Shown: in pieces, positions 5,521 through 63,724 of the stretch
Layout of the letters: each line of letters begins with the position of its first letter
Numbering within the stretch: the first letter of the stretch is position 1
Assembly (NCBI RefSeq): GCF_035046485.1
Contig: NC_085137.1
Location: 318,538,739-318,602,738, forward strand
Source of the DNA: Aedes albopictus
Taxonomy: Eukaryota > Arthropoda > Insecta > Diptera > Culicidae
DNA length: 64,000 nucleotides
Direction of reading: 5' to 3'
Translations under genes and position numbers: made by a program
Notes under the pieces: generated by a model
What the model was told of the DNA's origin: nothing
The model's database searches: none
The model's input: the letters and a program-made list of their open reading frames with translations, nothing else

Positions 5521-5522
5521 AT

Positions 5523-12349: not shown

Positions 12350-12523
12350 ATAGGAAGCAATCAGTGAAGTACTAGATTGAAAGTAGTGAGCTGGATTTTT
12401 GTATGGTGAGATGATCAGTTCTCCATTTCTGCAATGAAATGGTGCAAACAGCGTGGGTTATATGGTTTCTTGCCTAATTTGATGCTGTTTGAGCAAAACT
12501 TTGGGTAACTGTGTTGTTGAAAT

Positions 12524-41400: not shown

Positions 41401-44275
41401 TCGGGAATTGCTTCAGGAGCTCCTCGGGGATTCCTCCTGAAGTTCCTCAGAAATTCCTTCAGGAGTTTTTTGGGAATTTCTTCAGAAGTTCCTCTGAATT
41501 TCCTCTAGGAGTTTCTCTGGAATTGGGTTCTTTGGGGGGTCCAGATTATTTCACAATCAGATTCTCCGCCCAAAAATTAGTCGAAATCCAAAATTTCTTA
41601 ATTTTTGGAGTTTGGGAACTGTTTTTAAAATGCATTTAAAGTTTGTATGGGAACATTTTTTGTTCGGGTTGAACTGTCATTTTATCGATAGAGCTGTCAT
41701 TCTATTCACGAAAATTAAAACTGTTTTGTTAATTAAGCCATCAAAACAATGGTATTGGAATCCAATAAAATCACGTTATACTCAGAAAAGTGAGCTCTTT
41801 CGGTAAGGCTATAATCAATAGCAGTATTTTATTCACTAAACAACCCAATTCCTCAAAGAGTTCGTTGGAAATTCTTCCAGGAGTTCCTCGGGAATTGCTA
41901 CAGAAGTTGCTCGGGGATTCCTCGGAAATTCTCCTGGAACTCCCCAGAAATATCTGCAGGAGTTCTTCGGGAATATCTCCAGAAGTTCCGCGTTAATTCC
42001 TTCTGAAGTTCCTTGAAAAATTTTCCGGGAAGTTCTCAGGAATTTCTCAAGAATTACCTCGAGGATTTATCCAGGAGTTCCTAGGAATTTTTCATCAAGA
42101 GTTCCTCTGGTATTCCTCCAGGACTTCCTCAGAAACTCCTCCAGGAGTTTCTCGGAAATTGCTTCAGGAGTTCCTCGGAAATTTTTCGAGAATTTCCTCG
42201 AAGATTTATCCAGGAATTCCTTGGAAATTTTCACCAAGAGTTCCTCTTCCTGAGGTTCTCCGAGAATTCCTCAAGAAGTTCCTAAAAGAGTTTCTCGGGA
42301 TTCCTCCTGGAGTTCCTCGGGAATTTTTCCAAGAGTTCCTCGAGAATTCCTCAAGGAGTTCCTTGGGAATTCTTCCAGAAGTTCTTCGGGAATTCCTCCT
42401 GAAGTTCTTCGGGAATTCCTCCAAAAGCTCTTCTAAAATCCCTCCAAGAATTCCTCGGAAATTCAACCAGAAGTTCCCCAGCAATTCCTCCATCAGTTCC
42501 CCGGGAATATCTTCAGAAATTCCTCGGGAATTTCTTCAGAAGTCCCTTGGAAATTCCTCCTGTAGTTCCTTTAAACAGCTGCAGGAGTTCTTCGGGAATT
42601 GCTCCTGGAGCTCCTCGGGGATTCCTCCTGAAGTTCCTTGAAAATTCCTCTAAGAATTTCTTGAAAATTCCTTCAGTAGTTCCTTAGGAATTTCTTCAGA
42701 AGTTCCTCTGAATTTCCTTTAGGAGTTTCTCTGGAATTCTTCAAAGAGTTCTTCGGGAATCGCTTCAGGAGTTTCTCAGGAATTACTCCAAAAGCTGCTC
42801 GGGGATTCCCCGGAAATTCTGCAGGAGCTCCCTAGAAATATCTGCAGGAATTCTTCGAGAATATCTCCAGTAGTTCCTCGTGAATTTCATCAGGTGTTCC
42901 TTGAAAATTTCTCCGGGAGGTTCTCAGGAATTTCTCAAGAATTTCCTCGAAGATTTATCCAGGAGTTCCTTGGATTTTTTCACCAAGAGTTCCTCTTCCT
43001 GATGTTCTCCGAGAATTCCTCAAGGAGTTCCTAAAAGAGTTTCTCAGGATTCCTCCTGGAGTTCCTCGGGAATTTTTCCAAGAGTTCCTCGAGAATTCCT
43101 CAAGGAGTTCCTTGGGAATTCTTCCAGAAGTTCTTCGGGAATTCCTCCTGAAGTTCTTCGGGAATTCCTCCAAAAGCTCTTCTGAAATCCCTCCAAGAAT
43201 TCGTCGGAAATTCAACCAGAAGTTCCCCAGCAATTCCTCTATCAGTTCCCCGGGAATATTTTCAGAGATTCCTCGGGAATTTCTTCAGAAGTCCCTTGGA
43301 AGTTCCTCCTGTAGTTCCTTTGAACAGCTGCAGGAGTTCTTCGGGAATTGCTCCAGGAGCTTCTCGGGGACTCCTCCTGAAGTTCCTTGGAAATTCCTCT
43401 ACGAATTTCTTGAAAATTCCTTCAGAAGTTCCTCTGAGTTCCTCTAGGAGTTTCTCTGGAATTCTTCAAAGAGTTCCTCGGGAATCGCTTCAGGAGTTTC
43501 TCAGGAATTACTCCAAAAGCTGCTCGGGGATTCCTCGGAAATTCTCCAGGAGCTCCCCAGAAATATCTGCAGGAATTCTTTGAGAATATCTCCAGTAGTT
43601 TCTCGTGAATTTCATCAGGAGTTCCTTGAAAATTTCTCCGGGAGGTTCTCAGGAATTTCTCAAGAATTTCCTCGAAGATTTATCCAGGAGTTCCTTGGAT
43701 TTTTTCACCAAGAGTTCCTCTGAAATTACTCCAGGAATTCCTTGGAAATTCCTCCTGAAGCTCCTCTGAATTCCACCAGGAGTTCCCCAGGAATCCCTCA
43801 AGCAGTTCCTCAGGAATATCTCCAGAAGTTCCTAGGGAATTGCCCAAGGAATCCCTCGGAAATTCCTCTTGGAGTTCCTCGGGAGTTGCTGCAGGGAATT
43901 GCTCCAGCAGCTCCTCGAGGATTCTTCCAGGAATTCCTCGGCAATTCCTCCAAGAATTTCTTAAAAATTCCTTCAGGAGTTCCACGGGAATTTCTTTAGC
44001 AGTTCCTCGAAATTTCCTCCAGGAGTTCTCAGTAAACATCATCAGGAGTTCCTTGGGATTTCCTTCAGGAGTAGAATTTTCCTCGGAATTGCTACAGGAG
44101 TTCCCCGGAAATTGCGACAGAAGTTCCTCGGTAATTGCTCCAGAAGTTCCTCTGGTATTACTCCAGGAGATCCTCGAGAATTGTTCCAGCAGTTCTGTGA
44201 GAATTGCTTCAGGAGTTCCTTGGGAATACCTTCAGGAGTTCCTCAGTAATTGCTCCAGAGGTTTCTTTGGAACCT
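38487..44275 (+). repeat. ~24-bp satellite, main block (GAGTTCCTCGGGAATTCCTCC)
   Basis: About 5.8 kb of imperfect tandem units of 23-24 bp, consensus near aggagttcctcgggaattcc. Because 24 is a multiple of three, long ORFs full of EFLGNSS, RSSSGIPP or PGVPREFL run through it in several frames. These are not genes. There is a higher-order period of about 730-760 bp in the right part: the segment starting 'gaagatttatccagga' at about 42200 recurs at about 42950 and 43676. A 322-bp foreign element sits at 41525-41846. Confidence 0.9.
41525..41846. mobile_element. 322-bp element inserted in satellite (AATT duplication)
   Basis: Unrelated to the satellite on either side. Ends GGGTTCTTTGGGG and, inverted, GGGTTGTTTAGTG; flanked by AATT at 41521-41524 and 41847-41850, where the satellite itself resumes. 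The interior shares the phrase 'gtttgtatggga' and the 'tttttggag..gggaac' layout with 22885-23180, so both are copies of one dispersed family. Non-coding. Confidence 0.65.
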
Positions 44276-45470
44276 CCTGGATGAATTTCCGTGGAACTCC
44301 AGGAGGAATTCCCGAGGAGCACCTGAAGGAATTGTAGTGAACCTGCGGGAGAAATTCATGGGGAACTCCTGGAGGAATATCCTTGAAACTCCTAAATGAA
44401 TTACCGGGGAACTCCTGAGAATACTGCCGTGGAATTCCCAAGAAAAACTGGATGCATTTCCGAGGAGCTACTGGAGGATTTTCCGAGGAGCAACTTGTGG
44501 AGGAACTCTTGACACTTTCGTCTCGGTTGAAATCCGAAGTTTCCCCACACGCGACAATCGAGTTTTCTCCAATTCCTAACCTAACGTCGGACGTAGTGCG
44601 CTGGGCAGCGGTCCGGGCCTCCATCCAGCGCGCTTTGCCGACGCACGGTTTAAGAGAAACATCGATTTCCGCGTGTCAAAAATTTCCGATTTTCAACTGC
44701 CCGAACGATAGAATTCCCGAGGAACTCCTGAAGGAATTCCCTAAAAACTCCTTGAGGAATTTCCATGGAACTTCTGGAGCTCCTGAAGGATTTCCAGTGG
44801 AACTGCTAGAGAAGTTCCCGAGGAATACCTGAAGAAATTCTCGAGGTACTTCTGGAGGAATTCCCGAGAAACTGTTGGAAGAACTCCCGAGACACTCCTG
44901 GAGAAATTCTTGTGGAACTCCTGCAAGACTTTACACGAAATTTCTGAAGGAATCCCAGAGAAGCATCTGCAGCAATTCCCGAAGAACTCCTGCATATATT
45001 TCCGGGAAAGGAATAACCTTAGAACTCCAGGAATAATCCTTGAGTAACTCCTGGACGAATTCCTGGGAAGCTCTTGGAGGAATTCCCGGGAAACTCCTGG
45101 AGAAATTACCGAGGAACCCCTGGAGAAATTCCCGAGGAACTCCTGAGAAATTTCCCGGGAAACTTCTGAAGGTGTATCCTTTAAACTTCTGGTTGAATTA
45201 ACGGGGCACTCCTAGAAATACTACGGTGGAGGACCTGGAGGTATTCCCGAGGGACTCTCGAGCAACTCCTGGAGGAATTCCCAAGGAACTCTTGAAAGAA
45301 TTCCCGAGGAACTCCGGCAGGACTTCCCGAAGAACTCCTTGAGGTATTCCCAAAGACCTCCCACAGAAATTCCTGGAGAAACTCCTGCATAAATATCCGA
45401 GGAAGGAATAACCTTGGAATTCTTGGATGAATCAGCGTAGAGCTCTGGAAAGAGCTTCTGGAAAAATAGG
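44276..45470 (-). repeat. ~24-bp satellite, inverted block
   Basis: At about 44270 the satellite switches strand: units now read GAGGAACTCCTGGAGGAATT on the plus strand. The block continues to about 45470, broken by a 215-bp unrelated stretch at 44495-44709. Such an inversion inside a satellite could come from a hairpin-mediated rearrangement or from fusion of two arrays. Confidence 0.85.
44495..44709. other. Unique island inside the inverted satellite
   Basis: Non-satellite sequence running from 'gaactcttgacactttcgtc' to 'cccgaacgatag'. GC-rich around 44580-44650. No terminal repeat or ORF that I can assign; may be a remnant of a transposon or of the sequence at which the satellite inverted. 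Confidence 0.45.
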
Positions 45471-45913: not shown

Positions 45914-46170
45914 TGTCGTGAACCGAGGAACGGTTCACGGATCATTTTGTACGGAAGTATTCCGTAATTTACCCATCCGCAGGGCAATTCACACGAACAA
46001 CACAACCGTCTTCGTACACATCCATTTTTAGACTGAATTCTTGCGTGCTCGCGCGCGAGCACAAACCTGTTTGAACACACTTATTTCTGACTAACAATAA
46101 TCTGCCAACTCGTAACCCACAGAAATAAATAAACAGTTAATATTTTATTCCATGACATCTTATTCCTACA
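45914..46170 (-). repeat. LTR of giant element (left, probable 3' LTR)
   Basis: 257 bp, TG...CA ends. Contains an interrupted inverted repeat near one end (gtgaaccg...cggttcac), an 18-bp perfect palindrome GTGCTCGCGCGCGAGCAC (46045-46062), and AATAAATAAA at about 46122-46135. Confidence 0.88.
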
Positions 46171-46192
46171 TTCACCTTCACCTCTACTCTCT
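46171..46192 (-). promoter_or_regulatory. Putative polypurine tract of giant LTR element
   Basis: On the minus strand the 22 bases before the LTR contain 19 purines (agagagtagaggtgaagg...). It supports a right-to-left reading. The plus-strand alternative has no purine run before the other LTR. Confidence 0.5.
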
Positions 46193-46419
46193 AGTGAATG
46201 TTATATTCATCAACATATGAGAATATTTAAAGCATACAACATACAATAATTCAGACAATGCTTACAATAATACTTAAAATACATTATCAACTAAAAAATA
46301 CCTTGTTTAAACACATCCTTAATACATCACAATTAACATTTTAAAGCACCACTCATCTAGTTCTATCTCTTGTTGAATATGTTTTATTCGTTTCAGCTTA
46401 CCAGACTCAAACTTATTTT

Positions 46420-48172
46420 AAGCAGCAAAACCAGTAAAACATTCAACAACTTCCTCGACAGTTCGCAATTTATACGTTCTAACACACCTCAACGAGCTCT
46501 GTCAGAAAATCACATAAGCAGCAAAACCAGTAAAATATTCAATAACTTCCTCGACAGTTCGCAATTTATACGTTCTAACACACCTCAACGAGTTTTGTCT
46601 GATCTTTGGCATGCTATGTTGGGTTGAGCTTACCAGGCTCAAAAAATCACATAAGCAGCAAAACCAGTTAAATATTCAACAACTTCTTCTACAGTTCGCA
46701 ATTTATACGTTCTAACACACCTCAACGAGTTCTGTCTGATCTTTGGCATGCTATGTTGGGTTGAGCTTACCAGGCTCAAAAAATCACATAAGCAGCAAAA
46801 CCAGTAAAATATTCAACAACTTCCTCGACAATTCGCAATTTATACGTTCTAACACACCTCAACGAGTTCTGTCTGATCTTTGGCATGCTATGTTGGGTTG
46901 AGCTTACCAGGCTCAAAAAATCACATAAGCAGCAAAACCAGTAAAATATTCAACAACTTCCTCGACAGTTCGCAATTTATACGTTCTAACACACCTCAAC
47001 GAGTTCTGTCTGATCTTTGGCATGCTATGTTGGGTTGAGCTTACCAGGCTCAAAAAATCACATAAGCAGCAAAACCAGTTAAATATTCAACAACTTCTTC
47101 TACAGTTCGCAATTTATACGTTCTAACACACCTCAACGAGTTCTGTCTGATCTTTGGCATGCTATGTTGGGTTGAGCTTCCCAGGCTCAAAATCACATAA
47201 GCAGCAAAACCAGTAAAATATTCTACAACTTCCTCGACAGTTCGCAATTTATACGTTCTAACACACCTCAACGAGTTCTGTCTGATCTTTGGCATGCTAT
47301 GTTGGGTTGAGCTTACCAGGCTCAAAAAATCACATAAGCAGCAAAACCAGTAAAATATTCAACAACTTCCTCGACAGTTCGCAATTTATACGTTCTAACA
47401 CACCTCAACGAGTTCTGTCTGATCTTTGGCATGCTATGTTGGGTTGAGCTTACCAGGCTCAAAAAATCACATAAGCAGCAAAACCAGTAAAATATTCAAC
47501 AACTTCCTCGACAGTTCGCAATTTATACGTTCTAACACACCTCAACGAGTTCTGTCTGATCTTTGGCATGCTATCACAGACAAACAGACGTAACACTCTT
47601 CAAAACGGCTTGGCACATGCATTTAACGATCAATTCAAATTTCATTTGGTTTGCGCGATCGTTCCACCAGATGCGCTAGTGTTCGATCGCTTTGACGTTT
47701 GCCAGTGTACACGTTGCTTAATGATGCAAACGAAAATTATAGGCAATTTGTGTAGTAGTGTGCGTGTCAACAAAACGTCAAATTGAAATCCATCATGGTC
47801 GACAGTGTCACGCGCGGTTCTACCAACAGGTGGCAGTGTGCTCATGAAAATGACACCGGGCAAAAGTTTTTGATGAATTTCCTCTTAGAGTTACGTCTGT
47901 TTGTCTGTGATGCTATGTTGGGTTGAGCTTCCCAGGCCCAAAATCACATAAGCAGCAAAACCAGTAAAATATTCAACAACTTCCTCGACAGTTCGCAATT
48001 TATACGTTCTAACACACCTCAACGAGTTCTGTCTGATCTTTGGCATGCTATGTTGGGTTGAGCTTCCCAGGCCCAAAATCACATAAGCAGCAAAACCAGT
48101 AAAATATTCAACAACTTCCTCGACAGTTCGCAATTTATACGTTCTAACACACCTCAACGAGTTCTGTCTGAT
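46420..48172. repeat. 137-bp tandem array, left part
   Basis: About ten units of 137 bp; landmark words are 'cacataagcagcaaaacc', 'ctcgacagttcgcaattt' and 'gatctttggcatgctatg'. Units are nearly uniform, with variants shared by non-adjacent copies (cttcttctacag against cttcctcgacag). A 335-bp element interrupts at 47575-47909. The array continues beyond the foldback element at 57781. Confidence 0.9.
47575..47909. mobile_element. 335-bp DNA element (CACAGACAAACAGACG ends)
   Basis: Inverted ends CACAGACAAACAGACGTAAC at both sides; flanked by ATGCTAT (47568-47574, 47910-47916), which is array sequence. A 7-bp exact match with a mismatch at the eighth base suggests a superfamily with an 8-bp duplication (hAT or P-like). 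A 72-codon ORF inside is not recognised. Confidence 0.8.
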
Positions 48173-48184
48173 CAGGCACCGAAA

Positions 48185-48435
48185 TTATCTGATAGAAGGT
48201 GATACTATCAATTATCTGATAGACCACTGATACTATCAATTTGAGCTACTGATACTATCAGTTCTTTTCTATCAGTGATAGTATCACTGATAGAACGGGT
48301 TCTATCAGGGATAGAAAAAATAGAGATAGTATCTCTATCAGTAAAAATAGTGATAGAGATACTATCAGTAAAACTTCTATCAATTGATAGAGATAGAAGT
48401 TCTATCTCTATCAATTGATAGACTGATAGAAAGAA
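48185..48435. repeat. GATAGTATC microsatellite, left arm
   Basis: Irregular mixture of gatagtatca, tgatag and gatagaga words, partly self-complementary (tctatcagtgatagtatcac), so it could form hairpins. It lies directly inside the left terminus. Confidence 0.85.
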
Positions 48436-48489
48436 AATTGTTGGACAATGAGCAAGACGCATCATAAGCCGTCATAAAATATTAGGTTC

Positions 48490-50695
48490 TGAATAGACAT
48501 TATGAAACCCATGCAATATAGGTATTTTCGGAACGGGCTCGAAGAGTAGAAGCCAAAAATCGATGTCCGCCGCCATTTTGAAATCAAAGATGGCGGCCAT
48601 CGGATTTCAAAAACTGTTGTAAACCCATGCAATATGGGTATTTTCGGAACGGGATCGAAGAGTAGAAAACGAAAATCGATGTCCGCCGCCATTTTGAAAT
48701 CCAAGATGGCGGCCATCGGATTTCAAAAAATGTTGTAAACCCATGCAATATGGGTATTTTCGGAACGGGCTCGAAGAGTAGAAAACGAAAATCGATGTCC
48801 GCCGCCATTTTGAAATCCAAGATGGCGGCCATCGGATTTCAAAAAATGTTGTAAACCCATGCAATATGGGTATTTTCGGAACGGGCTCGAAGAGTAGATG
48901 TCGAAAATCGATGCCCGCCGCCATTTTGAAATCCAAGATGGCGGCCATCGGATTTCAAAAAATGTTGTAAACCCATGCAATATAGGTATTTTCGGAACGG
49001 GCTCGATGAGTAGAAGTCGAAAATCGATGTCCGCCGCCATTTTGAAATCCAAGATGGCGGCAATCGGATTTCAAAAGCTGTTGTAAACTTATGCAATATG
49101 GGTATTTTCGGAACGGGCTCGAAGAGTAGAAGTCGAAAATCGGTGTCCGCCGCCATTTTGCAATCCAAGATGGCGGCCATCGGATTTCAAAAACTGTTGT
49201 AAACCCATGCAATATAGGTATTTTTGGAACGGGCTCGAAGAGTAGAAGTCGAAAATCGATGTACCCCGCCATTTTGAAATCCAAGATGGCGGCCATCGGA
49301 TTTCTAAAAATGTTGTAAACTTATGCAATATGGGTATTTTCGGAACGGGCTCGAAGAGTAGAAAACGATAATAGATGTCCGCCGCCATTTTGAAATCCAA
49401 GATGGCGGCCATCGGATTTCAAAAAATGTTGTAAACCCATGCAATATAGGTATTTTCGGAACGGGCTTGAAGAGTAGAAGCCAAAAATCGATGTCCGCCG
49501 CCATTTTGAAATCAAAGATGGCGGCCATCGGATTTCAAAAACTGTTGTAAACCCATGCAATATGGGTATTTTTGGAACGGGCTCGAAGAGTAGATGTCGA
49601 AAATTGGTGTTCGCCGCCATTTTGAAATCCAAGATGGCGGCCATCGGATTTCAAAAACTGTTGTAAACCCATGCAATATGGGTATTTTCGGAACGGGCTC
49701 GAAGAGTAGATGTCGAAAATCGATGCCCGCCGCCATTTTGAAATTCAAGATGGCGGCCATCGGATTTCAAAAAATGTTGTAAACCCATGCAATATAGGTA
49801 TTTTCGGAACGGGCTCGATGAGTAGAAGTCGAAAATCGATGTCCGCCGCCATTTTGAAATCCAAGATGGCGGCAATCGGATTTCAAAAGTTGTTGTAAAC
49901 TTATGCAATATGGGTATTTTCGGAACGGGCTCGAAGAGTAGAAGTCGAAAATCGGTGTCCGCCGCCATTTTGCAATCCAAGATGGCGGCCATCGGTTTAA
50001 AAAATGTTGTAAACCCATGCAATATAGGTATTTTTGGAACGGGCTCGAAGAGTAGAAGTCGAAAATCGATGTACCCCGCCATTTTGAAATCCAAGATGGC
50101 GGCTATCGGATTTCAAAATCTGTTGTAAATCCATGCAATATGGGTATTTTCGGAACGGGCTCGAAGAGTAGAAGTTGAAAATCGATGTCCGCCGCCATTT
50201 TGAAATCCAAGATGGCGACCATCGGATTTCAAATGTTGTAAACCCATGCAATATGGCGATTTTCGGAACGAGCTCGAAGAGTAGAAGTCGAAAATCGATG
50301 TACGCCGCCATTTTGAAATCAAAGATGGCGGCCATCGGTTTAAAAAATGTTGTAAACCCATGCAATATGGGTATTTTCGGAACGGGCTCGAAGAGTAGAT
50401 GTCGAAGATCGATGTCCGCCGCCATTTTGAAATCCAATATGGCGGCTATCGGATTTCAAAAATTGTTGCAAACCCATGCAATATAGGTATTTTCGGAACG
50501 GGCTCGAAGAGTAGAAGCCAAAAATTGATGTCTGCCGCCATTTTTAAATCCAAGATGGCGGCATCGGATTTCAAAAAAAAATGTTGTAAACCCATACAAT
50601 ATGGGTATTTTCGGAACGGGCTTGAAGAGTAGAAGTCGAAAATCTATGGACTCCGCCATTTTGAAATCCGAGATGGCGGCCATCGGATTTCATAC
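48490..50695 (+). repeat. 116-bp tandem array, left arm
   Basis: About 19 units of 115-116 bp with the words 'gggtattttcggaacggg' and 'aagatggcggccatcgg'. The period leaves all frames open, so overlapping ORFs (FEIRWPPSWISKWRRTSIF, MAAILDFKMAADIDF) appear in many frames on the minus strand; they are not genes. Confidence 0.9.
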
Positions 50696-51619
50696 AGGGT
50701 GATTGGTTCCGGACTTTACAAAATTTTAGGGCATCTAGGTCTTCAAAAGTTATGGAAAAATGCCCAAGGAACATAGGGTCGGAAACCACTGCTAAGTGAG
50801 TCATTCAAATTTTATTTTTTTAAAGTAAGCTCATTTTTGAAATCAAATGTCTCAGGAATTAAAGGTCGTACGTAATGCTTGAAACGAAAGCTAATGAACT
50901 TATCTTTCTTAGCTTTTTTGACGGGGATTTGGTAAAACTACTTTCAAATTTCAAAAAGTTTGCAAAAAGTGTCTTAAAAATCAGTCATTTTTTAAGTATT
51001 TAAAAAAAAATTTAAATGAATAAATAACTTCTGTTAAAAAAGTTCTTCTACAAAACATGCACAAACTTGTTCTCTAAAAATGTTTCTTTGACAGCAAAAC
51101 TCTATCTTTTGTAGATTACCCAAGGGGTTGGTCATTCAGCACACTTCATTTGTGCCGTGATTTTTGAGCGTGTGCCAATATGTGCCTAAACTGTGCCGGT
51201 TGTTTTTCAGTGTGTGCCGAAGTGTGCCGAACGTGCTGGAGGTTTGCCGAATGTGCCCAGTGGAATATTTTCTTAGAATGTTTTTGCGCTAATTATAATC
51301 CTGTCTATTTTTGGCGAATGTTATTGGTCTAGTCGGTGTTTACCGACAAAATTCCACCCAGAACACTTGTCTAGAATCTGTATGAAGGGATTTTTTGCAA
51401 TCGTAAGTATAATGACAGTTTGATTCCATACCGCAAAGTTGGATTTCTATGTTGTGCCCATGTGTGCCGGATTGTGCCGGCATGTGTGCCGAGATGTGCC
51501 GGCATGTGTGCCGGGCACAATGTGCCGAGTGACCAACCCCTTGAGATTACCCAAAAAATGATTTTGAAAATAACACTCCAAATTGCATAAACTTCATACC
51601 AAAACAATGGTCATCACCC
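50695..51619. mobile_element. Possible DNA element with (C/T)AGGGTGAT ends
   Basis: Left end cagggtgattggttcc follows a TA; the right end atcaccct is its complement for about 8-9 bp. The interior is AT-rich and non-coding and carries the 423-bp insert at 51121-51543. Short terminal match, so tentative. Confidence 0.4.
51121..51543. mobile_element. 423-bp hAT-type MITE rich in GTGCCG motifs
   Basis: Ends CAAGGGGTTGGTCA inverted, with an exact 8-bp duplication AGATTACC (51113-51120, 51544-51551). Near both ends short GTGTGCCGA/GTGCCGG words are repeated many times, so subterminal repeat clusters flank an AT-rich middle. Such subterminal motifs are typical hAT transposase binding sites. Non-coding. 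Confidence 0.88.
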
Positions 51620-51621
51620 TA

Positions 51622-51788
51622 GGGGCTGTCCATTAATTACGTAAGGGAATTTTTACGATTTTTCAACACCCCCTCTCCTCCTTGTAAGATTTTTTGTATG
51701 ACAACCCAAAATTTTTTGTATGGCTCGTAAGATTTCTCAAACCCCCACCTCCCCCCCATAAACCCTTATGTAATTAATGGACAGCCCC
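51622..51788. mobile_element. 167-bp MITE (GGGGCTGTCCATTAATTACG ends)
   Basis: Terminal inverted repeats of about 24 bp starting GGGGCTGTCCATTAATTACG; CTA on both sides (51619-51621, 51789-51791). This end sequence is one that I recall as common among short insect MITEs. Non-coding. Confidence 0.85.
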
Positions 51789-51791
51789 CTA

Positions 51792-52115
51792 TCAGTTCGC
51801 GCGTTCGTATGTTGTTGCTCCACAGCATGAAGACGACGGCAGCTGCTGGTGCTGTCGTTACGAACGGAAAACGAGTTCGCTCTTTGACGCGTCGTATCTC
51901 CGCCTGCGGAAGAAAACGAGGCGGAGTTTGGTATTAATAAATCGTGTGAGCAAACTAAGTGCGACGTTTCGACGGAGCGAAAGCACCGATGAAAGTTTAT
52001 TAAAAAGAGCATACATTTATATCCCTCGCACTCGTAGCTCTGCTGCGGTGCTGTTCAGATGAGGGGGTCTATGCGTGCGGCAATTTAAAAGATTTTTTTT
52101 TATTTGACAATGTAA
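51792..52115. other. Unassigned GC-richer stretch in foldback middle
   Basis: Contains CG-rich words (gacgacggcagctgctgg, acgcgtcgtatctccgcctg) unlike its surroundings and a 91-codon minus-strand ORF (51737-52012) without known motifs. It may be captured host sequence. Confidence 0.4.
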
Positions 52116-52119
52116 GTGC

Positions 52120-52178
52120 ATTCTTCTTCTATCTGGCATAACACCCCCACTAGGAGGAGACTGTTTCTCAGCTTTTAA
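52120..52178 (-). mobile_element. Decayed Feilai-like SINE tail fragment
   Basis: 'ttctatctggcataacaccc...gactgtttctcagctt' aligns with 18068-18120 of the full SINE. Confidence 0.55.
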
Positions 52179-52179
52179 A

Positions 52180-53490
52180 GGAACGTTGGGGATTTTTAGG
52201 CGATATTGGGGAGGATAACGGAAATTTTGAATTCATGAGGTTCTTCGGAAAAAAATGATGCCTCTGGAAAATCTAAGCAGCAAGTTGGGCATTTTTTTAG
52301 AAGTTGGGGATTTTAGGAGAAGTTGGGCAAGTGAGAGGAACATTGGGCATTTTAGGAGAATTTGGTGATTTTAAAGGAACTTTGGGACCTATGGGAGATA
52401 TTGGGGAAAGTAAAGAAAACTTAGGAATCTTTAGGTTCTTCGAGGAAAATGATGCCTCTGGGAAATCTAAGCAGCAAGTTGGGTATTTTTTAGATGCAGG
52501 GGATGTTAGGAGAAGTTGGGCATTTTAGGAAAGGTTGAGGATTTGAGCAGAAGCTAGGAGTTTTAGGACAATTTGGGGATTTTTAAGGGTCATTGGGGTT
52601 TTCAGGAGATATTGGGGAGAATAAAGGAAACTTAGGACTCAATAGGTTCTTCGAGGAAAATGATGCCTTTGTAAAATCTAAGCAGCAAGTTTTGTATTTT
52701 TTTAGATGTTGGGGATTTTAGGAGAAGTTGGACATTTTAGGAGAATTTGGGAGAAGTTTTGGGAGATATTGGGGAGAATCAGGGTTTCTCATTTCCACTT
52801 TTCATCTTCTTCCACATTCGAAGACAGTCAGCAGCGAACGGTTATCGCTTTAGTTCGTGTGTATGCTTGTCAGCGACGACAGCAAATTCCGGCGAACGGT
52901 GGGAAGCCACACTTGGAAATTACTCATTCGTCCACATTCGCATCGCAAGCGAATGCGATTCGTGAGTGATGCGATTGATATTGTGCATACGAATTTTTGA
53001 TGTTTTCGAATTATTTTCTTTGCTAATCTAGCATTTCAGCAACAATACAGTAAAAATGTATGCATTACATGCAGAAATTCTCTTCTACTTATGATAATAG
53101 CTGCTTCGATCGCTCACCAGTATTCTTCACTATTTGCCATTCATTCATTCGCTTGCGATCCAAACTGCGACGAATGGCAACGAATATTCATGTCAAGCAG
53201 CTGGCTCATCGCTTCCCACTGGTGATGGGGTTGCGTGTTTGATCACGACGATCCGTTTGCTGCATCTTTCTCGATTCGCTTCAGCAAAGAGGAGTGAATA
53301 TGAATGGAGTGAGGTGAATATACCGATCCTTGGGGAGAATAAAGGGAACTTAGAACTCATGAGGTTCTTCGAGGAAAATGATGCCTATGGAAAATCTAAG
53401 CAGCAAGTTGGGCATTTTACGAGTAGTTGGGGATTTTAGGAGAAGTTGGGGATTTGAGAGGAAATTAGGCATTTTAGAAGTTTCTGGAAA
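52180..53490 (+). repeat. Low-complexity GGGGATTTTAGGAGAAGTT repeat
   Basis: Short units near 'ttaggagaagttggggat' are embedded in a longer period of about 200 bp marked by 'ggttcttcgaggaaaatgat' and 'aatctaagcagcaagttggg' (about 52234, 52432, 52650 and 53362). The spacing between the last two is wider because about 540 bp of unrelated sequence (about 52775-53315) interrupts; its ends are not clear. ORFs here are by-products. Confidence 0.75.
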
Positions 53491-54415
53491 TGATGCCAGG
53501 ATAGGTTATTCACATTTGATCCCGTATGATAAATGTACTTACCGCCTAAGTTTTGTTTTACCCAACTGCCAGTTCAATATACTCAAACTTGGGTACTGTC
53601 GAAGACGGCTAGTAAAAATAAATCAAGTAAATATGAGCCGTCTTTGGCACTGTTCTTTTTATTCAATTGTGGCTTCCCGCACCGAACTGTCAAAGTTGGG
53701 TTGTTTTGCTTTTCGAGCTTTGACACAGTAGCAACTACGAATTGTACGGTCATCTCATGCTCATGCTTAATATAGAGAGTTAATGAGAGAGGAGATAAAA
53801 AAAAACTTAAAAGTTAGTTTAAATGTACTCAAATTTAGGAATTTGGGATTTTCCATTTACGCGGAAAAATAAGAGCACAGTGCTGCTCGTTGGTTGTTCG
53901 GTGGTTGGGGCAAAACCCAACTGAAAAGCACTGTCTATGTCAAATTCAAGTTTTACGTCTGACCGCCGACGCACCGAAGCTCCTATATACAGAAGGTTTG
54001 TGCAAGTATGTGGGTATATCGTGACGTAATTCTCGTCACTTGCGTGTGTCTAGAGCATTTTGGTCAGTTGCCTCAACCAATGAATACGATTCACTAATCG
54101 GGGTGCAGTCGTAACCCAACCAACGAATCCCCGCTGTACTCAATTTTATTTATCAAAGTTATTTCCACCTAACTTAAGGGTTGCGTGCGCCTAGCCAATA
54201 GATGTTATTGATGTTGCTTCCGTTTGCTTCCATTTGAAAAAAAAATATCTATTTTCACTCAACAGAAATTTCGTGCCAGAAACTCCATTTTTGTTGACGT
54301 ACTCGAATTGCAACAGTTAGGCTGTTTCGTTTTTAACTCTTCGACAACAATAAAAAGAGCGCTTGAAAAGGAATATTAAAAAGAACTCAAATTCGAATTT
54401 TTCAGGTTCTCCAGG
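53491..54415. other. Unassigned sequence in foldback middle
   Basis: Mixed AT-rich sequence with words ccgtctttggcactgttc and cccaactgaaaagcactgtc. A 117-codon ORF (53378-53731) is partly low complexity and has no known motif. No transposase signature found on either strand. Confidence 0.4.
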
Positions 54416-54439
54416 TAGTGATGAATAAACCACCTCACG

Positions 54440-57380
54440 GCAAAATTCCCTTTCTTGGATTTCAAAATGGCGGCGGACATCGATTTCCGACGTCTACTCA
54501 TCGAACCCGTTCCGAAAGTACCCGTATTTTATGGGTTTCAATCGACTTTCAAGATCCGATGGCCGCCATCTTGAATTTCAAAATGGCGCCAAACATCGAT
54601 TTTTGACTTCTACTCTTCGAGCCCGTTCCGAAAATACCCATATTTCATGAGTGTCTATCGGTTTTCAAAATCCGATGGCCGCCATCGTGTATTTCAAAAT
54701 GGCGGCGTACACCGATTTTCGACATCTACTCTTCGAGCCCGTTTCAACAATACCCATATTGAATGGGTTTACAACAGTTTTTGAAATCCGATGGCCACCA
54801 TCTTTGATTTCAAAATGGCGGTGGACATCTATCTTTGGCTTCTACTCTTCGAGCCCGTTCCGAAAATACCCATATTGCATGGGTTTACAACAGTTTTTGA
54901 AATCCGATGGCCGCCATCTTGGATTTCAAAATGGCGGCGGACACCAATTTCGACATCTACTCTTCGAGCCCGTTCCGAAAATACCCATATTGCATGGGTT
55001 TACAACAGTTTTTGAAATCCGATGGCCGCCATCTTGGATTTCAAAATGGCGGCGGACATCGATTTTTGTCTTCTACTCTTCGAGCCCGTTCCGAAAATAC
55101 CCATATTGCATAGGTTTACAACAGTTTTTGAAATCCGATGGCCGCCATCTTGGATTTCAAAATGGAGGCGGACATCGATTTTTGACTTCTACTCTTCGAG
55201 CCCGTTCCGAAAATACCCATATTGCATAGGTTTACAACAGTTTTTGAAATCCGATGGCCGCCATCTTGCATTTCAAAATGGCGGCGGACATCGATTTTTG
55301 ACTTCTACTCTTCGAGCCCGTTCCAAAAATACCCATATTGCATGGGTTTACAACATTTTTTGAAATCCGATGGCCGCCATCTTGGATTTCAAAATGGCGG
55401 CGGACATCGATTTTTGGCTTCTACTCTTCGAGCCCGTTCCGAAAATACCCATATTGCATGAGTTTACAACAGTTTTTGAAATCCGATGGCCGCCATCTTG
55501 GATTTCAAAATGGCGGCGGACATCGATTTTTGGCTTCTACTCTTCGAGCCCGTTCCGAAAATACCCATATTGCATAGGTTTACAACAGTTTTTGAAATCC
55601 GATGGCCGCCATCTTGGATTTAAAAATGGAGGCGGACATCGATTTTTGACTTCTACTCTTCGAGCCCGTTCCGAAAATACCCATATTGCATGGGTTTACA
55701 ACAGTTTTTGAAATCCGATGGCCGCCATCTTGGATTTCAAAATGGCGGCGGACACCAATTTTCGACATCTACTCTTCGAGCCCGTTCCAAAAATACCCAT
55801 ATTGCATGGGTTTACAACAGTTTTTGAAATCCGATGGCCGCCATCTTTGATTTCAAAATGGCGGCGGACATCGATTTTTGTCTTCTACTCTTCGAGCCCG
55901 TTCCGAAAATACCCATATTGCATGGGTTTACAACAGTTTTTGAAATCCGATGGCCGCCATCTTGGATTTAAAAATGGCGGCGGACATCGATTTTTGGCTT
56001 CTACTCTTCGAGCCCGTTCCGAAAATACCCATATTGCATGGGTTTACAACAGTTTTTGAAATCCGATGGCCGCCATCTTGGATTTCAAAATGGCGGCGGA
56101 CACCAATTTTCGACATCTACTCTTCGAGCCCGTTCCAAAAATACCCATATTGCATGGGTTTACAACAGTTTTTGAAATCCGATGGCCGCCATCTTTGATT
56201 TCAAAATGGCGGCGGACATAGAGTTTTGGCTTCTACTCTTCGAGCCCGTTCCGAAAATACCCATATTGCATGGGTTTACAACAGTGTTTGAAATCTGATG
56301 GCCGCCATCTTGGATTTCAAAATGGCGGCGGACATAGAGTTTTGGCTTCTACTCTTCGAGCCCGTTCCGAAAATACCCATATTGCATGGGTTTACAACAG
56401 TGTTTGAAATCTGATGGCCGCCATCTTGGATTTCAAAATGGCGGCGAACACCAATTTTCGACATCTACTCTTCGAGCCCGTTCCAAAAATACCCATATTG
56501 CATGGGTTTACAACAGTTTTTGAAATCCGATGGCCGCCATCTTTGATTTCAAAATGGCGGCGGACATCGATTTTTGGCTTCTACTCTTCGAGCCCGTTCC
56601 GAAAATACCCATATTGCATGGGTTTACAACAGTGTTTGAAATCTGATGGCCGCCATCTTGGATTTCAAAATGGCGGCGGACACCAATTTTCGACATCTAC
56701 TCTTCGAGCCCGTTCCAAAAATACCCATATTGCATGGGTTTACAACAGTTTTTGAAATCCGATGGCCGCCATCTTTGATTTCAAAATGGCGGCGGACATC
56801 GATTTTTGGCTTCTACTCTTCGAGCCCGTTCCGAAAATACCCATATTGCATGGGTTTACAACAGTTTTTTGAAATCCGATGGCCGCCATCTTGGATTTCA
56901 AAATGGCGGCGGACATCGATTTTTGGCTTCTACTCTTCGAGCCCGTTCCGAAAATACCCATATTGCATAGGTTTACAACAGTTTTTGAAATCCGATGGCC
57001 GCCATCTTGGATTTCAAAATGGCGGCGGACACCAATTTTCGACATCTACTCTTCGAGCCCGTTCCAAAAATACCCATATTGCATGGGTTTACAACAGTTT
57101 TTGAAATCCGATGGCCGCCATCTTGGATTTCAAAATGGCGGCGGACGTCGATTTTTGGCTTCTACTCTTCGAGCCCGTTCCGAAAATACCCCTATTGCAT
57201 GGGTTTACAACAGTTTTTGAAATCTGATGGCCGCCATCTTGGATTTCAAAATGGCGGCGGACACCAATTTTCGACATCTACTCTTCGAGCCCGTTCCAAA
57301 AATACCCATATTGCATGGGTTTACAACAGTTTTTGAAATCCGATGGCCGCCATCTTGGATTTCAAAATGGCGGCGGAACT
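54440..57380 (-). repeat. 116-bp tandem array, right arm (inverted)
   Basis: About 25 units of 115-116 bp, the reverse complement of the left arm ('ccgatggccgccatcttgg', 'cccgttccgaaaataccc'). More homogeneous near 55-57 kb than at the inner edge (54.45-54.75 kb), where units are diverged, as expected if unequal exchange homogenises the array core. Confidence 0.9.
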
Positions 57381-57494
57381 CGTTTTTTGGTATCCGGAAG
57401 ATAAATATTGTTGATTATAACAAATATTTCATTTCAAATTAATATTTTTTTATTCAATTTTTTCCCACTATGCGGAAGATTTATGTTCCGGATT

Positions 57495-57770
57495 TGCTAT
57501 CAATGATAGGATAGATAGAGATAATGATAGAATTTTTCTGATAGTATCTTTTTTTTTTAAAGATAGATGATAGAGATAGACCACGTCTATCCTTGATAGT
57601 AAAAATGCTGATAGTATCAGTAACCTTCTATCAGCTGATAGAGATAATTATTTTATCTTCTATCCATCAGTTTAAAAAAATTGATAGTATCTCTATCAGT
57701 GCCCCTACTGATAGTATCAGTTGATACTATCCAAAGATAGGACTGATAATGATAATTGATAGAGATAATT
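57495..57770. repeat. GATAGTATC microsatellite, right arm
   Basis: Same word set as 48185-48435, inverted overall, directly inside the right terminus. Confidence 0.83.
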
Positions 57771-57780
57771 TTGGTGCCTG

Positions 57781-60569
57781 TGTCTGATCTTTGGCATGCT
57801 ATGTTGGGTTGAGCTTACCAGGCTCAAAGAATCACATAAGCAGCAAAACCAGTAAAATATTCAACAACTTCCTCGACAGTTCGCAATTTATACGTTCTAA
57901 CACACCTCAACGAGTTCTGTCTGATCTTTGGCATGCTATGTTGGGTTGAGCTTACCAGGCTCAAAAAATCACATAAGCAGCAAAACCAGTAAAATATTCA
58001 ACAACTTCCTCGACAATTCGCAATTTATACGTTCTAACACATCTCAACGAGTTCTGTCTGATCTTTGGCATGCTATGTTGGCTTGAGCTTACCAGGCTCA
58101 AAAAATCACATAAGCAGCAAAACCAGTAAAATATTCAACAACTTCCTCGACAATTCGCAATTTATACGTTCTAACACACCTCAACGAGTTCTGTCTGATC
58201 TTTGGCATGCTATGTTAGGTTGAGCTTACCAGGCTCAAAAAATCACATAAGCAGCAAAACCAGTAAAATATTCAACAACTTCCTCGACAATTCGCAATTT
58301 ATACGTTCTAACACACCTCAACGAGTTCTGTCTGATCTTTGGCATGCTATGTTGGGTTGAGCTTACCAGGCTCAAAAAATCACATAAGCAGCAAAACCAG
58401 TAAAATATTCAACAACTTCTTCTACAGTTCGCAATTTATACGTTCTAACACACCTCAACGAGTTCTGTCTGATCTTTGGCATGCTATGTTGGGTTGAGCT
58501 TACCAGGCTCAAAAAATCACATAAGCAGCAAAACCAGTTAAATATTCAACAACTTCTTCTACAGTTCGCAATTTATACGTTCTAACACACCTCAACGAGT
58601 TCTGTCTGATCTTTGGCATGCTATGTTGGGTTGAGCTTCCCAGGCTCAAAATCACATAAGCAGCAAAACCAGTAAAATATTCTACAACTTCCTCGACAGT
58701 TCGCAATTTATACGTTCTAACACACCTCAACGAGTTCTGTCTGATCTTTGGCATGCTATGTTGGGTTGAGCTTACCAGGCTCAAAAAATCACATAAGCAG
58801 CAAAACCAGTAAAATATTCAACAACTTCCTCGACAGTTCGCAATTTATACGTTCTAACACACAGAGATGGCATAGATACACTGATAAACAGCTCTGCGTA
58901 CACATCTTCAATAAACTGTGCGCCGCTCTGTTTTGCTACGAATGTGGACCGGCAACAAACACACATCGCTTAGCCGTAAAACTTTGCGGGAGAGTGCAAA
59001 TGTGTAAGTTGCCACACCATCTGCGCGAGGCGTCACAGAGCTCAAACTTCTTCTGCGTGAGCTTCGCTCATTTCTTGAAATGTGCTACACATCTGCGCTG
59101 TCTGAACTGGAAGTTGTAGGCTCTCGGCATTACAGAGTAGCGCAGCGCTGCGATGTGAGCTGTGTGTTAGACTGTACTTTCTCTTGCTTTCCTGCGCTCA
59201 CCGTCGTGCGCGATGCGACAACGATGCCGAGTGCGTGCAGCCCGACAACGCAGAAGATAATTCTTTACACGCACTCTTTCTCATCTTGCAGGCTGTGTGA
59301 AATGTGTATTTTTTCATCTTCTCACTTAGCGCTCTGAGGAGCATGCCATCTCTGCTAACACACCTCAACGAGTTCTGTCTGATCTTTGGCATGCTATGTT
59401 GGGTTGAGCTTCCCAGGCCCAAAATCACATAAGCAGCAAAACCAGTAAAATATTCAACAACTTCCTCGACAGTTCGCAATTTATACGTTCTAACACACCT
59501 CAACGAGTTCTGTCTGATCTTTGGCATGCTATGTTGGGTTGAGCTTCCCAGGCCCAAAATCACATAAGCAGCAAAACCAGTAAAATATTCAACAACTTCC
59601 TCGACAGTTCGCAATTTATACGTTCTAACACACCTCAACGAGTTCTGTCTGATCTTTGGCATGCTATGTTAGGTTGAGCTTACCAGGCTCAAAGAATCAC
59701 ATAAGCAGCAAAACCAGTAAAATATTCAACAACTTCCTCGACAGTTCGCAATTTATACGTTCTAACACACCTCAACGAGTTCTGTCTGATCTTTGGCATG
59801 CTATGTTAGGTTGAGCTTACCAGGCTCAAAAAATCACATAAGCAGCAAAACCAATAAAATATTCAGCAACTTCCTCGACAGTTCGCAATTTATACGTTCT
59901 AACACACCTCAAAATCTTTGGCATGCTATGTTAGGTTGAGCTTACCAGGCTCAAAAAATCACACAAGCAGCAAAACCATTAAAATATTCAACAACTTCCT
60001 CGACAGTTCGCAATTTATACGTTCTAACACACCTCAACGAGTTCTGTCTGATCTTTGGCATGCTATGTTGGGTTGAGCTTACCAGGCTCAAAAAATCACA
60101 TAAGCAGCAAAGCCAGTAAAATATTCAACAACTTCCTCGACAGTTCGCAATTTATACGTTCTAACACACCTCAACGAGTTCTGTCTGATCTTTGGCATGC
60201 TATGTTGGGTTGAGCTTACCATTCTCAAAAATTCACATAAGCAGCAAAACCAGTTAAATATTCAACAACTTCCTCGACAGTTCGCAATTTATACGTTCTA
60301 ACACACCTCAACGAGTTCTGTCTGATCTTTGGCATGCTATGTTAGGTCGAGCTTACCAGGCTCAAAAAATCACATAAGCAGCAAAACCAGTAAAATATTC
60401 AGCAACTTCCTCGACAGTTCGCAATTTATACGTTCTAACACACCTCAACGAGTTCTGTCTGATCTTTGGCATGCTATGTTGGGTTGAGCTTACCAGGCTC
60501 AAAAAAATCACATAAGCAGCAAAACCAGTAAAATATTCAGCAACTTCCTCGACAGTTTGCAATTTATAC
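57781..60569. repeat. 137-bp tandem array, right part
   Basis: About 17 units continuing the array at 46420-48172 in the same orientation, interrupted by a 493-bp element at 58862-59354. One unit near 59900-59930 has lost the 'aacgagttctgtctg' segment. The block ends where the 73-bp array begins, in mid-unit. Confidence 0.9.
58862..59354. mobile_element. 493-bp hAT-type element in 137-bp array
   Basis: Ends CAGAGATGGCAT and ATGCCATCTCTG (partial inverted repeat), flanked by an exact 8-bp duplication CTAACACA (58854-58861, 59355-59362) taken from the array unit. The interior is GC-richer (gcgctgcgatgtgagctgtg) than the array. No transposase. Confidence 0.87.
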
Positions 60570-61250
60570 GTTGGATTTAAATTTTTAGTTGACCCAACTA
60601 GGTCCGATGGCTACTCCACACCACCGACCAACCTATTCGAAAGTTGGATTTAAATTTTCAGTTGACCCAACTAGGTCCGATGGCTACTCCGCACCACCGA
60701 CCAACCTATTCGAAAGTTGGATTTAAATTTTCAGTTGACCCAACTAGGTCCGATGGCTACTCCGCACCACCGACCAACCTATTCGAAAGTTGGATTTAAA
60801 TTTTCAGTTGACCCAACTAGGTCCGATGGCTACTCCGCACCACCGACCAACTTATTCGAAAGTTGGATTTGAATTTTCAGTTGACCCAACTAGGTCCGAT
60901 GGCTACTCCGCACCACCGACCAACCTATTCGAAAGTTGGATTTAAATTTTCAGTTGACCCAACTAGGTCCGATGGCTACTCCGCACCACCGACCAACCTA
61001 TTCGAAAGTTGGATTTAAATTTTCAGTTGACCCAACTAGGTCCGATGGCTACTCCGCACCACCGACCAACCTATTCGAAAGTTGGATTTAAATTTTCAGT
61101 TGACCCAACTAGGTCCGATGGCTACTCCGCACCACCGACCAACCTATTCGAAAGTTGGATTTAAATTTTTTAGTTAACCCAACTAGGTCCGATGGCTAGT
61201 CCGCACCACCGACCAACCCACTCCAGAGTTGGATTTAAATTTTGAGTTGC
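60570..61250 (+). repeat. 73-bp tandem array
   Basis: Nine or so units of exactly 73 bp starting gttggatttaaattttcag and containing 'gacccaactaggtccgatgg'. Copies at 60570, 60643, 60716, 60789, 60862, 60935, 61008, 61081, 61154. Nearly uniform in the middle and diverged at both edges. Confidence 0.92.
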
Positions 61251-61262
61251 CCCATATATGCC

Positions 61263-61500
61263 TTTCCAACAACTTCTATTACAGTTCACAATTTATACGT
61301 TCTAGCACACTTCACCGAATTATGTCTGATCTTGGGCATCCTATGTTGGATTAAACCTACCAGGCTCAAAACCACATGAGCAGCAAAACTCACGTTACGT
61401 GAACAATAAAATTACAAATACAATTACAAAACCATACAATATTTGCATCAACGACCAACTTTCACCTGAGTTGGATTATGAATGTTCAGTCGACCCATAC
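61263..61500 (+). repeat. Diverged single copies of the 137-bp and 73-bp units
   Basis: 61263-61393 is a divergent 137-bp unit ('acagttcacaatttatacg', 'gtctgatcttgggcatccta'). It is followed near 61455-61500 by a divergent relic of the 73-bp unit ('accaactttcacctgagttg'). They look like founder-like copies outside the homogenised arrays. Confidence 0.65.
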
Positions 61501-62280
61501 ATGCCTTCCAATCATTTTTTTTTATAACCAAGTTCATTGCAAGCTCGATTGCTAGTTCAAAATTAATAGACCTGTCTGTAATTCCATTTTTTTTTTTGCG
61601 CGTACACTAAGCCATTTTGAGACTTAGTACTTTCATCGAATCTATCACGAACTATTAAACTTAAATTCTCTATCCAACTAGGTCTAACTACCGACCAACC
61701 ATACTGACTTTTTTTGTATTGTCCCAATAAGCTCTTCTAAATTACCTCCTCAAAGAGGCAATCTTCCAGTTCACTATCTGAGACTCTATTTGGCGACAAA
61801 GATCAATACCCATGTCCACGCTATATTTGGTCCCTTACAATCTACAAGCAAATATTATTGTATTTTTCTGTCCGATCATCATGTGTTGGGAACGTTGTAT
61901 CTCTTTGTTTTCACCCAAAAACCAATCCCCTTTTCTTCTGTTTTAAAAATCGTTGAAAAATATAACAACCGTAGCCAACTTTGAAGTTCGTATCAGTTCA
62001 TAAAATGTAATGATAATTTTGCGAATATCAATACAATAATCATGTCCAAAACGCGTAAAATACCATTTGTGCAACACTTCCACCTATGAGTTTTGCTTTG
62101 CGACAGATTGCCAATCAGCCTCCCTCCATCGTGCCAACCCAATGCCAAGCAATAAACCATTTTACAAGCCGATTCGGATCAGCTGATCGCTTATTTCATG
62201 AATGAAAACTTGGCAGGAAGTGCCGTACTAGAAGTATAATATCAATATCAACATTGTTGTCATTTAATCTAATGTGTTAT
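61501..62280. repeat. 5' region of giant element, copy 1 of an internal duplication
   Basis: Within this, about 61885-62240 ('gggaacgttgtatctc', 'aatatcaatacaataatcat', 'acttccacctatgagttttg', 'atcgtgccaac') is paralleled in order by 62465-62830. No gag-like ORF in any frame. Confidence 0.6.
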
Positions 62281-62835
62281 TGTGCGAACCCTGGTACGAA
62301 CTTACGGCTTATCGTGTTCATCATCCCTACAAAGCTAGCAGCCAACATCAATCGGGTTCCCTCATATACAATGCATTTGGGTTCCCATCCCTTAACAATG
62401 GTACAAGATGATGGAATCGAAAACATGACGTCATCGCGCCTGGGTTGTTTAACAATCATGAGTTTGGGAACGTTTCACCTTTTCATTTGCCCAAACACCT
62501 ACACTCCCTTTTATCTATTCTAAAGTACATCTACTTTTGAAAGTCGTTGAAAAAAATACAGCAACCATCATCAGGTCGTATCTGTCCATAAAATTGGGTT
62601 AATTGTTCATTTTGCGAATACATACCCAGGTAATATCAATACAGTAATCATATCCGTAAAATACTTTTTGTGTATGCTTCCACCTACGAGTTTCGCTTTG
62701 CGTTTAATTGCCAATCAAATTCTTTCTACCGTGCCAGCGTTATGTCACATCGCTCCGTCAGTCAGTTAAGCAATACTTTATTAAACGAGCCAATCTTATG
62801 AATGAAAATGTGTCAGGAAGTAGCGTTAAGCATGC
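62281..62835. repeat. 5' region of giant element, copy 2 of an internal duplication
   Basis: Diverged direct copy of about 61885-62240 ('gggaacgtttcacc', 'aatatcaatacagtaatcat', 'gcttccacctacgagtttcg', 'accgtgccagc'). Offset about 580 bp. The copies differ widely, so the duplication is older than the satellite homogenisation. Confidence 0.6.
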
Positions 62836-63448
62836 GTGAAGGAGTTCAGACAAATGTTGTTTTATTTACCTCGTTTGTTCTTCTCAGCACTGCGGCTCCG
62901 TCAAAGGCTACCCACGAAACCGGATGATTACATACCTGTTAGGAAGTTAATTTGTCTCGATGCGCCACTTTTCACCGAATTCCGTAGTAACTCGCGAAAA
63001 TGGCCTTTTCAAAAGGTGATCCTCTCTCGTGCAATCACAAAATAAACCCGTATCACTCCTCCCACGAAACACAAATAACAAACACTTCACACAAAAAAAC
63101 GAATCTTCGCTGCTTGTCATCATGATGCCAGAGGTTGCAGCGATGACATTTCCTATTGGGGACTACGAAGGTGATGATTTTGTTTGCGGTTTTCTGTGAG
63201 AAAGTGAAGGAGGGAAGATTTTTTGCTTTTTTTTCACTCATACTCCCATAAGAAACCCCGTAGGAAGAAAGAGTGTTTCCCGGCTCATCAACCTTCGTAG
63301 TCGCGAATTGGAAAAAAGTACCGGCAGCAGCGGCGTCGATTTGGTCGTGGCCGAAAAAAAAATCAGACCGCTGCATCGCAGACGTTCCTGATGGCGGTCT
63401 CTCATTTTACACCGTTTTCAATTCAACTTACCGGTTGGAACATCCGGT
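62836..63448. other. 5' leader-like region next to the probable 5' LTR
   Basis: Contains two overlapping unrecognised ORFs on the plus strand (62836-63045, 63273-63521) and one of 107 codons on the minus strand (63053-63376). None shows a gag zinc knuckle, protease or other retroelement motif. Confidence 0.4.
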
Positions 63449-63467
63449 TCTCTACCGACCGAACCAT
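63449..63467 (-). promoter_or_regulatory. Putative primer-binding site of giant LTR element
   Basis: On the minus strand the sequence after the LTR reads A then TGGTTCGGTCGGTAGAG. TGG would pair with the CCA end of a tRNA, but I cannot match the remainder to a specific tRNA from memory. Confidence 0.35.
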
Positions 63468-63724
63468 TGTCGTGAACCGAGGAACGGTTCACGGATCATT
63501 TTGTACGGAAGTATTCCGTAATTTACCCATCCGCAGGGCAATTCACACGAACAACACAACCGTCTTCGTACACATCCATTTTTAGACTGAATTCTTGCGT
63601 GCTCGCGCGCGAGCACAAACCTGTTTGAACACACTTATTTCTGACTAACAATAATCTGCCAACTCGTAACCCACAGAAATAAATAAACAGTTAATATTTT
63701 ATTCCATGACATCTTATTCCTACA
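63468..63724 (-). repeat. LTR of giant element (right, probable 5' LTR)
   Basis: 257 bp, same sequence as the left LTR by eye, including the palindrome. Matching sequence implies recent integration or recent gene conversion. Confidence 0.88.

Follow-up and report, generated by a model that had tools for sequence, protein, structure and literature searches.

Can a retrotransposon carry tandem-repeat arrays to new sites in a mosquito genome, and can a single element carry several different satellite families at once? The question is raised by a locus of Aedes albopictus (assembly GCF_035046485.1, contig NC_085137.1, positions 318,538,739 to 318,602,738 of the forward strand; this 64,000-nucleotide stretch is the window, and plain coordinates refer to it), in which two long terminal repeats (LTRs) enclose 17.8 kb of repeat-rich DNA between positions 45914 and 63724. 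A preliminary description had read this interval as one 17.8-kb element. Our analysis shows that it contains a real and fairly recent retrotransposon without genes, which takes two tandem-repeat arrays with it to new chromosomal locations, and that most of the apparent length consists of transposons that later jumped into it. With high confidence, we interpret the element as a non-autonomous LTR retrotransposon on the minus strand, about 7.2 kb long in its own right and presumably mobilized in trans, whose arrays were probably amplified inside it before a foldback-like transposon and miniature inverted-repeat transposable elements (MITEs) nested within it.

The boundaries of the element are well defined. 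The LTRs at 45914-46170 and 63468-63724 are identical at 257 of 257 bases, start with TG and end with CA, and ATAAG stands on both outer flanks as one 5-bp target duplication, which confirms that the pair matches and belongs to a single integration. The inner flank of the left LTR is a minus-strand purine tract and that of the right LTR, one base in, a primer-site-like sequence, so the element reads on the minus strand; accordingly the 5′ LTR is the one at 63468-63724 (minus strand), adjoined by the leader, and the arrays lie towards the 3′ LTR at 45914-46170 (minus strand). In this orientation, the 5′ LTR (63724-63468) is followed by the putative primer site, a leader of about 1.9 kb, a 73-bp array, a 137-bp array, a 3′ region with a polypurine tract and the 3′ LTR (46170-45914). 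The 3′ region (46171-46418, minus strand) ends in the tract AGAGAGTAGAGGTGAAGGTGAA, identical in all six copies compared, and includes a relic of a 137-bp unit (about 70-74% identity). Direct TG...CA LTRs within a single target duplication, a polypurine tract inside the 3′ LTR, and the dispersed independent copies and solo LTRs described below place the element among the LTR retrotransposons. Long arrays are hard to assemble, and two solo LTRs or two elements might have been joined across unresolved repeats. Such an artefact is very improbable here, given inner flanks of the tract and primer kind, ATAAG on both outer flanks, and the same anatomy in four other copies.

Tandem Repeats Finder, together with a leader comparison, recovered the interior components expected from the preliminary description, namely a 137-bp array, a 73-bp array and a duplicated leader. 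The 137-bp array (46419-60569, minus strand) comprises some 27 units altogether, and three inserts split it into blocks detected at 46419-47574, 47910-48173, 57781-58862 and 59355-60572; its register is restored when the inserts are discounted. The 73-bp array (60570-61254, minus strand) holds 9.4 units and is also present in four sibling copies. Beyond it stands a single diverged 137-type unit (about 80-85% identical to the 137-bp units) followed by a diverged 73-type unit (61255-61536, minus strand). This presumed ancestral module occurs at 94-97% identity in the sibling loci L010, L011, L023 and L025, and is absent from L009. The leader (61537-63467, minus strand) contains a diverged internal duplication, with 61941-62136 matching 62535-62736 at 68% identity (E 9e-18), and is matched beyond a MITE that it harbors at no fewer than five loci, all of them array-bearing copies. 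The mosquito satellite piRNAs tapiR1 and tapiR2, whose sequences are given in PMC9781653, have no match in the window within six substitutions.

The lack of coding capacity also held. Outside the arrays and large inserts, in 46171-46418 and 61255-63467, the longest open frame has 117 codons, and no Pfam family reached its curated cut-off in 10 tested open reading frames (ORFs) among the 140 stop-to-stop ORFs of at least 60 amino acids between 45 and 64 kb. Around the siblings, 34 ORFs of at least 150 amino acids occur at 16 loci; the 10 tested, not counting a 159-amino-acid ORF at the leader edge in L025, showed no LTR-type gag-pol.

The size of the element required revision, as about 10.6 of the 17.8 kb are nested insertions, leaving an own length of about 7.2 kb as reckoned from lengths only. 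A 335-bp MITE (47575-47909) with terminal inverted repeats (TIRs) CACAGACAAACAGACG and a 7-bp duplication ATGCTAT has relatives at 90-93% identity in L020 and L046. A foldback-like DNA transposon of 9608 bp (48173-57780) is defined by TIRs beginning CAGGCACC, an 8-bp duplication TGTCTGAT and a right boundary at 57780/57781. A 493-bp hAT-like MITE (58862-59354) has inverted ends CAGAGATGGCAT and an 8-bp duplication CTAACACA. Subtracting each insert and its duplication from the raw landmark spacings of 477, 9753 and 638 bp leaves 135, 137 and 137 bp, the normal spacing of the array. The fourth insert, a high-copy MITE in the leader (63158-63315, ends approximate), accounts for 35 of the 42 listed matches of the leader search and has an empty site in L010. 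The preliminary description had missed these three smaller inserts as well as a third array of 116-bp units, which Tandem Repeats Finder placed in two inverted blocks, the left arm (48505-50692, plus strand) and right arm (54453-57389, minus strand) of the foldback-like element. Long inverted arms of tandem repeats within a target duplication are characteristic of foldback-type DNA transposons; no transposase was recognized in the few ORFs tested of this copy.

Three arrays between one identical LTR pair could also mean that the whole 17.8 kb is a single large retrotransposon derivative (LARD)-like element moving all three satellites together. We consider this extremely unlikely, since the element that contains the 116-bp arrays has inverted ends and a target duplication of its own. 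The right end of that element gave 46 matches at about 39 places including its own copy (40 of 42 candidates scored), with 25 matches covering the full 391-base query at 91-100% identity. It thus recurs at about 38 other places, stopping at 57780. With a query spanning this end (boundary at query position 150/151), 30 listed matches at other foldback places stop at 147-155, matches to the 137-bp array start at 151-157, and the own copy alone spans both, among the approximately 150 of 195 matches listed. Neither the foldback ends nor the 116-bp unit was found in the 14 sibling loci, three of which have short core matches at 67-85%. The separate ends and duplication, the dispersal in the genome and the lack of matches to ends and unit in the siblings indicate that the 116-bp array does not belong to the LTR element. 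As a family, the right end occurs at 87-99% identity across the other places, with 116-bp repeats in the arms. The LARD label itself does not fit, as LARDs have kilobase-long LTRs and a long conserved non-coding interior, and the LTRs here measure 257 bp. Terminal-repeat retrotransposons in miniature (TRIMs), which are very short as whole elements, are likewise ruled out by the other two-LTR copies, which span 5.2, 6.0 and 9.0 kb.

To these structural data, searches of the 1.344-Gb assembly (1494 contigs) added evidence of mobility. The LTR produced 23 matches at 17 loci, of which 15 were read (this copy and 14 siblings), the other two being C2:320.9 and C2:501.3 Mb; searches with the LTR of a diverged subfamily, B, point to at least one further fragment (C2:133.97). 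Two LTRs are present at four of the 15 read loci, and in three of these the pair is identical and flanked by its own 5-bp duplication: this copy, L009 (C1:238.04 Mb, 257/257, CTAAT) and the subfamily-B copy L011 (C2:229.79 Mb, 241/241, TTCTC). In the fourth, L010 (C3:420.66 Mb), the LTRs differ by four mismatches and two gap positions. Five loci (C1:255.2, C1:73.4, C2:150.5, C1:226.3 and C3:338.4) retain one LTR with interior sequence. Among the six isolated LTRs, four have their own duplications (GATGG, ATTAC, GAACC and CGCAG), the fifth (L020) is bounded by a GGCAT duplication and bears an odd extension of 24 bp, and the sixth is incomplete. Although 155 Mb separate them, the solo LTR L018 and the LTRs of L011 have the same sequence, so subfamily B has moved recently too. 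At L020 (4709-4974), ATGG comes after the solo LTR, and then the final 20 bases of a subfamily-B LTR end are repeated, all inside the GGCAT duplication; the extension resembles a product of aberrant reverse transcription that was joined at the primer site.

This genome-wide survey shows that other copies carry the same leader and arrays, and that two of the other two-LTR copies (L009 and L011) have their own 5-bp duplications. The order LTR, 3′ region, 137-bp array, 73-bp array, single diverged unit and leader is shared by five copies (this one, L010, L011, C1:255.2 and C1:73.4). Counted by motif, 137-bp units number 26 in this copy, 27 in L009, 5 in L010, 43 in L011, 35 in C1:255.2 and 41 in C1:73.4, and 73-bp units 9, 0, 2, 8, 10 and 6 in the same order, the arrays of L010 being interrupted by inserts. 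Three subfamily-A copies, each on a different chromosome-sized contig, have a join between the 137-bp and 73-bp arrays that is identical over about 30 bp, one or two differences in the 75 bp preceding it, and the same edge variants in their first and last 73-bp units. A different join, identical over 75 bp, is shared by two subfamily-B copies. Such joins and edge variants would not be expected from independent capture, and their sharing within subfamilies shows that the element takes its arrays along when it moves. Because copies that integrated separately, in some cases with target duplications of their own, have these edges in common, the spread of tandem repeats by this element has direct support.

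Where the repeats came from is a separate matter. The element could have captured pre-existing genomic satellites and then spread them, as both units form arrays without a recognized LTR. At C2:209.16 Mb, a 73-bp array of about 2.6 kb lies beside 137-type units about 88% alike, and at C2:194.75 Mb a 6.2-kb array of 137-type units, 87-96% (mostly 92-96%) identical to a query taken from it, adjoins 73-type units at 77-84%, listed matches at other loci being 78-82% alike. We nevertheless regard capture as improbable. The 73-bp unit was found at nine places (84 matches, all 11 candidates scored), and at all eight that were read, the ninth being C2:309.26, it adjoins 137-type sequence as it does in the element, C2:323.5 having only a 39-bp piece. 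Single diverged units also survive inside the element, beyond the 73-bp array, in five copies, and a relic persists in the 3′ region; together these are best read as the unamplified ancestor, which would favor amplification in place. Among the matches listed for the 137-bp unit (about 150 of 444; 40 of 50 candidates scored), six of seven loci are element copies and the seventh is C3:338.45, with an LTR fragment about 20 kb away; a search from the C2:194.75 unit added 137-type matches at C2:231.01, C3:104.76 and C2:415.09. The suggestion that a retrotransposon can seed or spread tandem repeats is thus sustained for spreading, by the shared array edges, and not for the seeding of free satellites, since the 73-bp repeats adjoin 137-type sequence wherever their flanks were read.

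For the machinery behind this mobility, the putative primer binding site TGGTTCGGTCGGTA (63453-63466, minus strand) provides a clue. It lies one base inside the 5′ LTR and is the same in this copy, L009, L010 and L011, and in subfamily B (L011) it is kept though the leader just inside has diverged. A search for the LTR end plus primer site with up to three mismatches returned 92 sites, versus 30 for a reversed control, and 54 of the 92, by hand count, have the form CGACA-A-TGG[TC][AG]CAG[TC]CGGTA. The genome holds 25 matching tRNA 3′ ends (23 exact; none for the reversed control), whose complement plus TGG corresponds to this form and whose source we take to be tRNA-Ser. At C2:27394724, 27397303 and 27400012, three LTR ends with tRNA-Ser-type primer sites stand on one strand, 2.6-2.7 kb apart, suggesting tandem short LTR elements. 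Several leads to an autonomous partner were rejected. The two loci read from the LTR-end search (L062 and L063) have otherwise unlike LTRs. With the subfamily-B LTR, 17 of 40 matches share only the last 46-50 bp, and the primer site does not follow in the five whose downstream letters were read. The reverse-transcriptase ORF in L017 belongs to a non-LTR element inside a solo LTR, and that in L015 lies beyond the element fragment, in antisense orientation to it. The terminal 46-50 bp of the subfamily-B LTR consist of a hairpin and ACGACA and are themselves recurrent, at 87-98% identity in those 17 matches; in four of the five for which the following letters were available, GCTG comes next.

From this anatomy we infer a life cycle in which RNA would be transcribed from the LTR. 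Acting in trans, the proteins of an autonomous LTR element primed by a tRNA-Ser-type tRNA would then copy this RNA and integrate the product, so that every new copy would bring its arrays along. The arrays may have been born inside the element when an internal module, made up of one 137-bp unit and one 73-bp unit, was duplicated; their copy number could shift via reverse-transcription slippage or unequal exchange. After landing, the present copy received the 9.6-kb foldback-like transposon with its 116-bp arrays and the three MITE-like elements.

Several observations weigh against this interpretation. The primer site matches the complement of the tRNA-Ser-type 3′ end plus CCA at only 11 of 14 positions. 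None of the matches listed for this LTR or leader belonged to a coding copy; the leader search, swamped by the leader MITE, covered the best 40 of 1673 candidates and did not list the leader stub of L009. As for the copies, L010 has no clear target duplication, those at C1:255.2 and C1:73.4 lack a 5′ LTR, and L009, with its 137-bp array, is without the 73-bp array and keeps only a 133-bp stub of the leader. Within the arrays, the order of unit variants is not conserved beyond shuffles in any of 10 pairs (the observed value is reached in 60 to 300 of 300 shuffles; L010, with three full units, was left out), and a unit's closest relative mostly lies within its own copy (for 16 of 23 units here, for example). 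The unshared order and the within-copy relatives indicate that array interiors are remade or turned over rather than simply copied. The array-bearing lineage spans divergence depths at which 137-type units are about 98%, 88% and 78% alike. More speculatively, it may have preserved one pair of arrays in unchanged order across three or more such depths while remaking the arrays locally, which would make it a long-lived birthplace and carrier of paired satellites, and the arrays might serve the element in packaging, transcription or escape from silencing.

Elsewhere in the window, a long diverged tandem region based on a 23-bp unit (CTCCAGGAGTTCCTCGGGAATTC) lies just outside the LTR element (38646-45361) and flips to the reverse-complement unit at about 44260. 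Non-LTR reverse-transcriptase/endonuclease ORFs and pieces of Tc1/mariner-like transposases occupy 7071-11713, 29180-32521 and 19203-21707, and repeated blocks starting ATAGGAAGCAATCAGTGAAGTACTAG form tandem pairs of 360 and 172 bp at 5161-5882 and 12350-12691.

Among known systems, the closest parallel is the cqUNK series of Culex quinquefasciatus, comprising 38 coding-free LTR families with internal tandem repeats (Marsano et al. 2012, PMC3286476); contrary to what had been supposed, a gene-less, internally repeated LTR element is thus not unusual in an insect. According to that paper, cqUNK elements have LTRs of 125 to 931 bp, a primer binding site (often Ser or Arg), a polypurine tract, 4-5-bp duplications where found, one or more tandem arrays, no coding capacity and no known master copy, and the repeat periods of cqUNK_26 are 150 and 73 bp. 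The Aedes element likewise has complex tandem repeats bracketed by LTRs and, within the ORFs tested, is coding-free. Compared by description only, the two differ in that Aedes siblings share both repeats and array edges, whereas copies of one cqUNK family need not share a repeat (PMC3286476). Plant Ogre/Retand elements also carry tandem arrays before the 3′ LTR, which expand and in some cases become satellites (Vondrak et al. 2019, PMC7004042; PMC11963269); in these papers, however, many carriers keep gag-pol, whereas no coding copy of the Aedes family was found and its 73-bp repeats, wherever their flanks were read, had 137-type neighbors as in the element. The nested 9.6-kb element, again by description only, recalls the Tetris foldback of Drosophila virilis, which has tandem repeats in long inverted terminal arms, with repeats of about 220 bp rather than 116 bp (PMC4079207). 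We noticed no literature on this particular family, papers not being searchable by sequence.

The Aedes family is a further case of the cqUNK-like kind, with stronger evidence for the passive spread of repeats than in PMC3286476, where spread by retrotransposition is offered as a hypothesis. Array edges shared across separate integrations are direct evidence for that hypothesis. The locus also illustrates that nested transposons can mimic a giant multi-satellite element. As a small family, with its LTR at 17 loci in one genome, it makes the copy number, unit order and homogenization of mobile arrays measurable.

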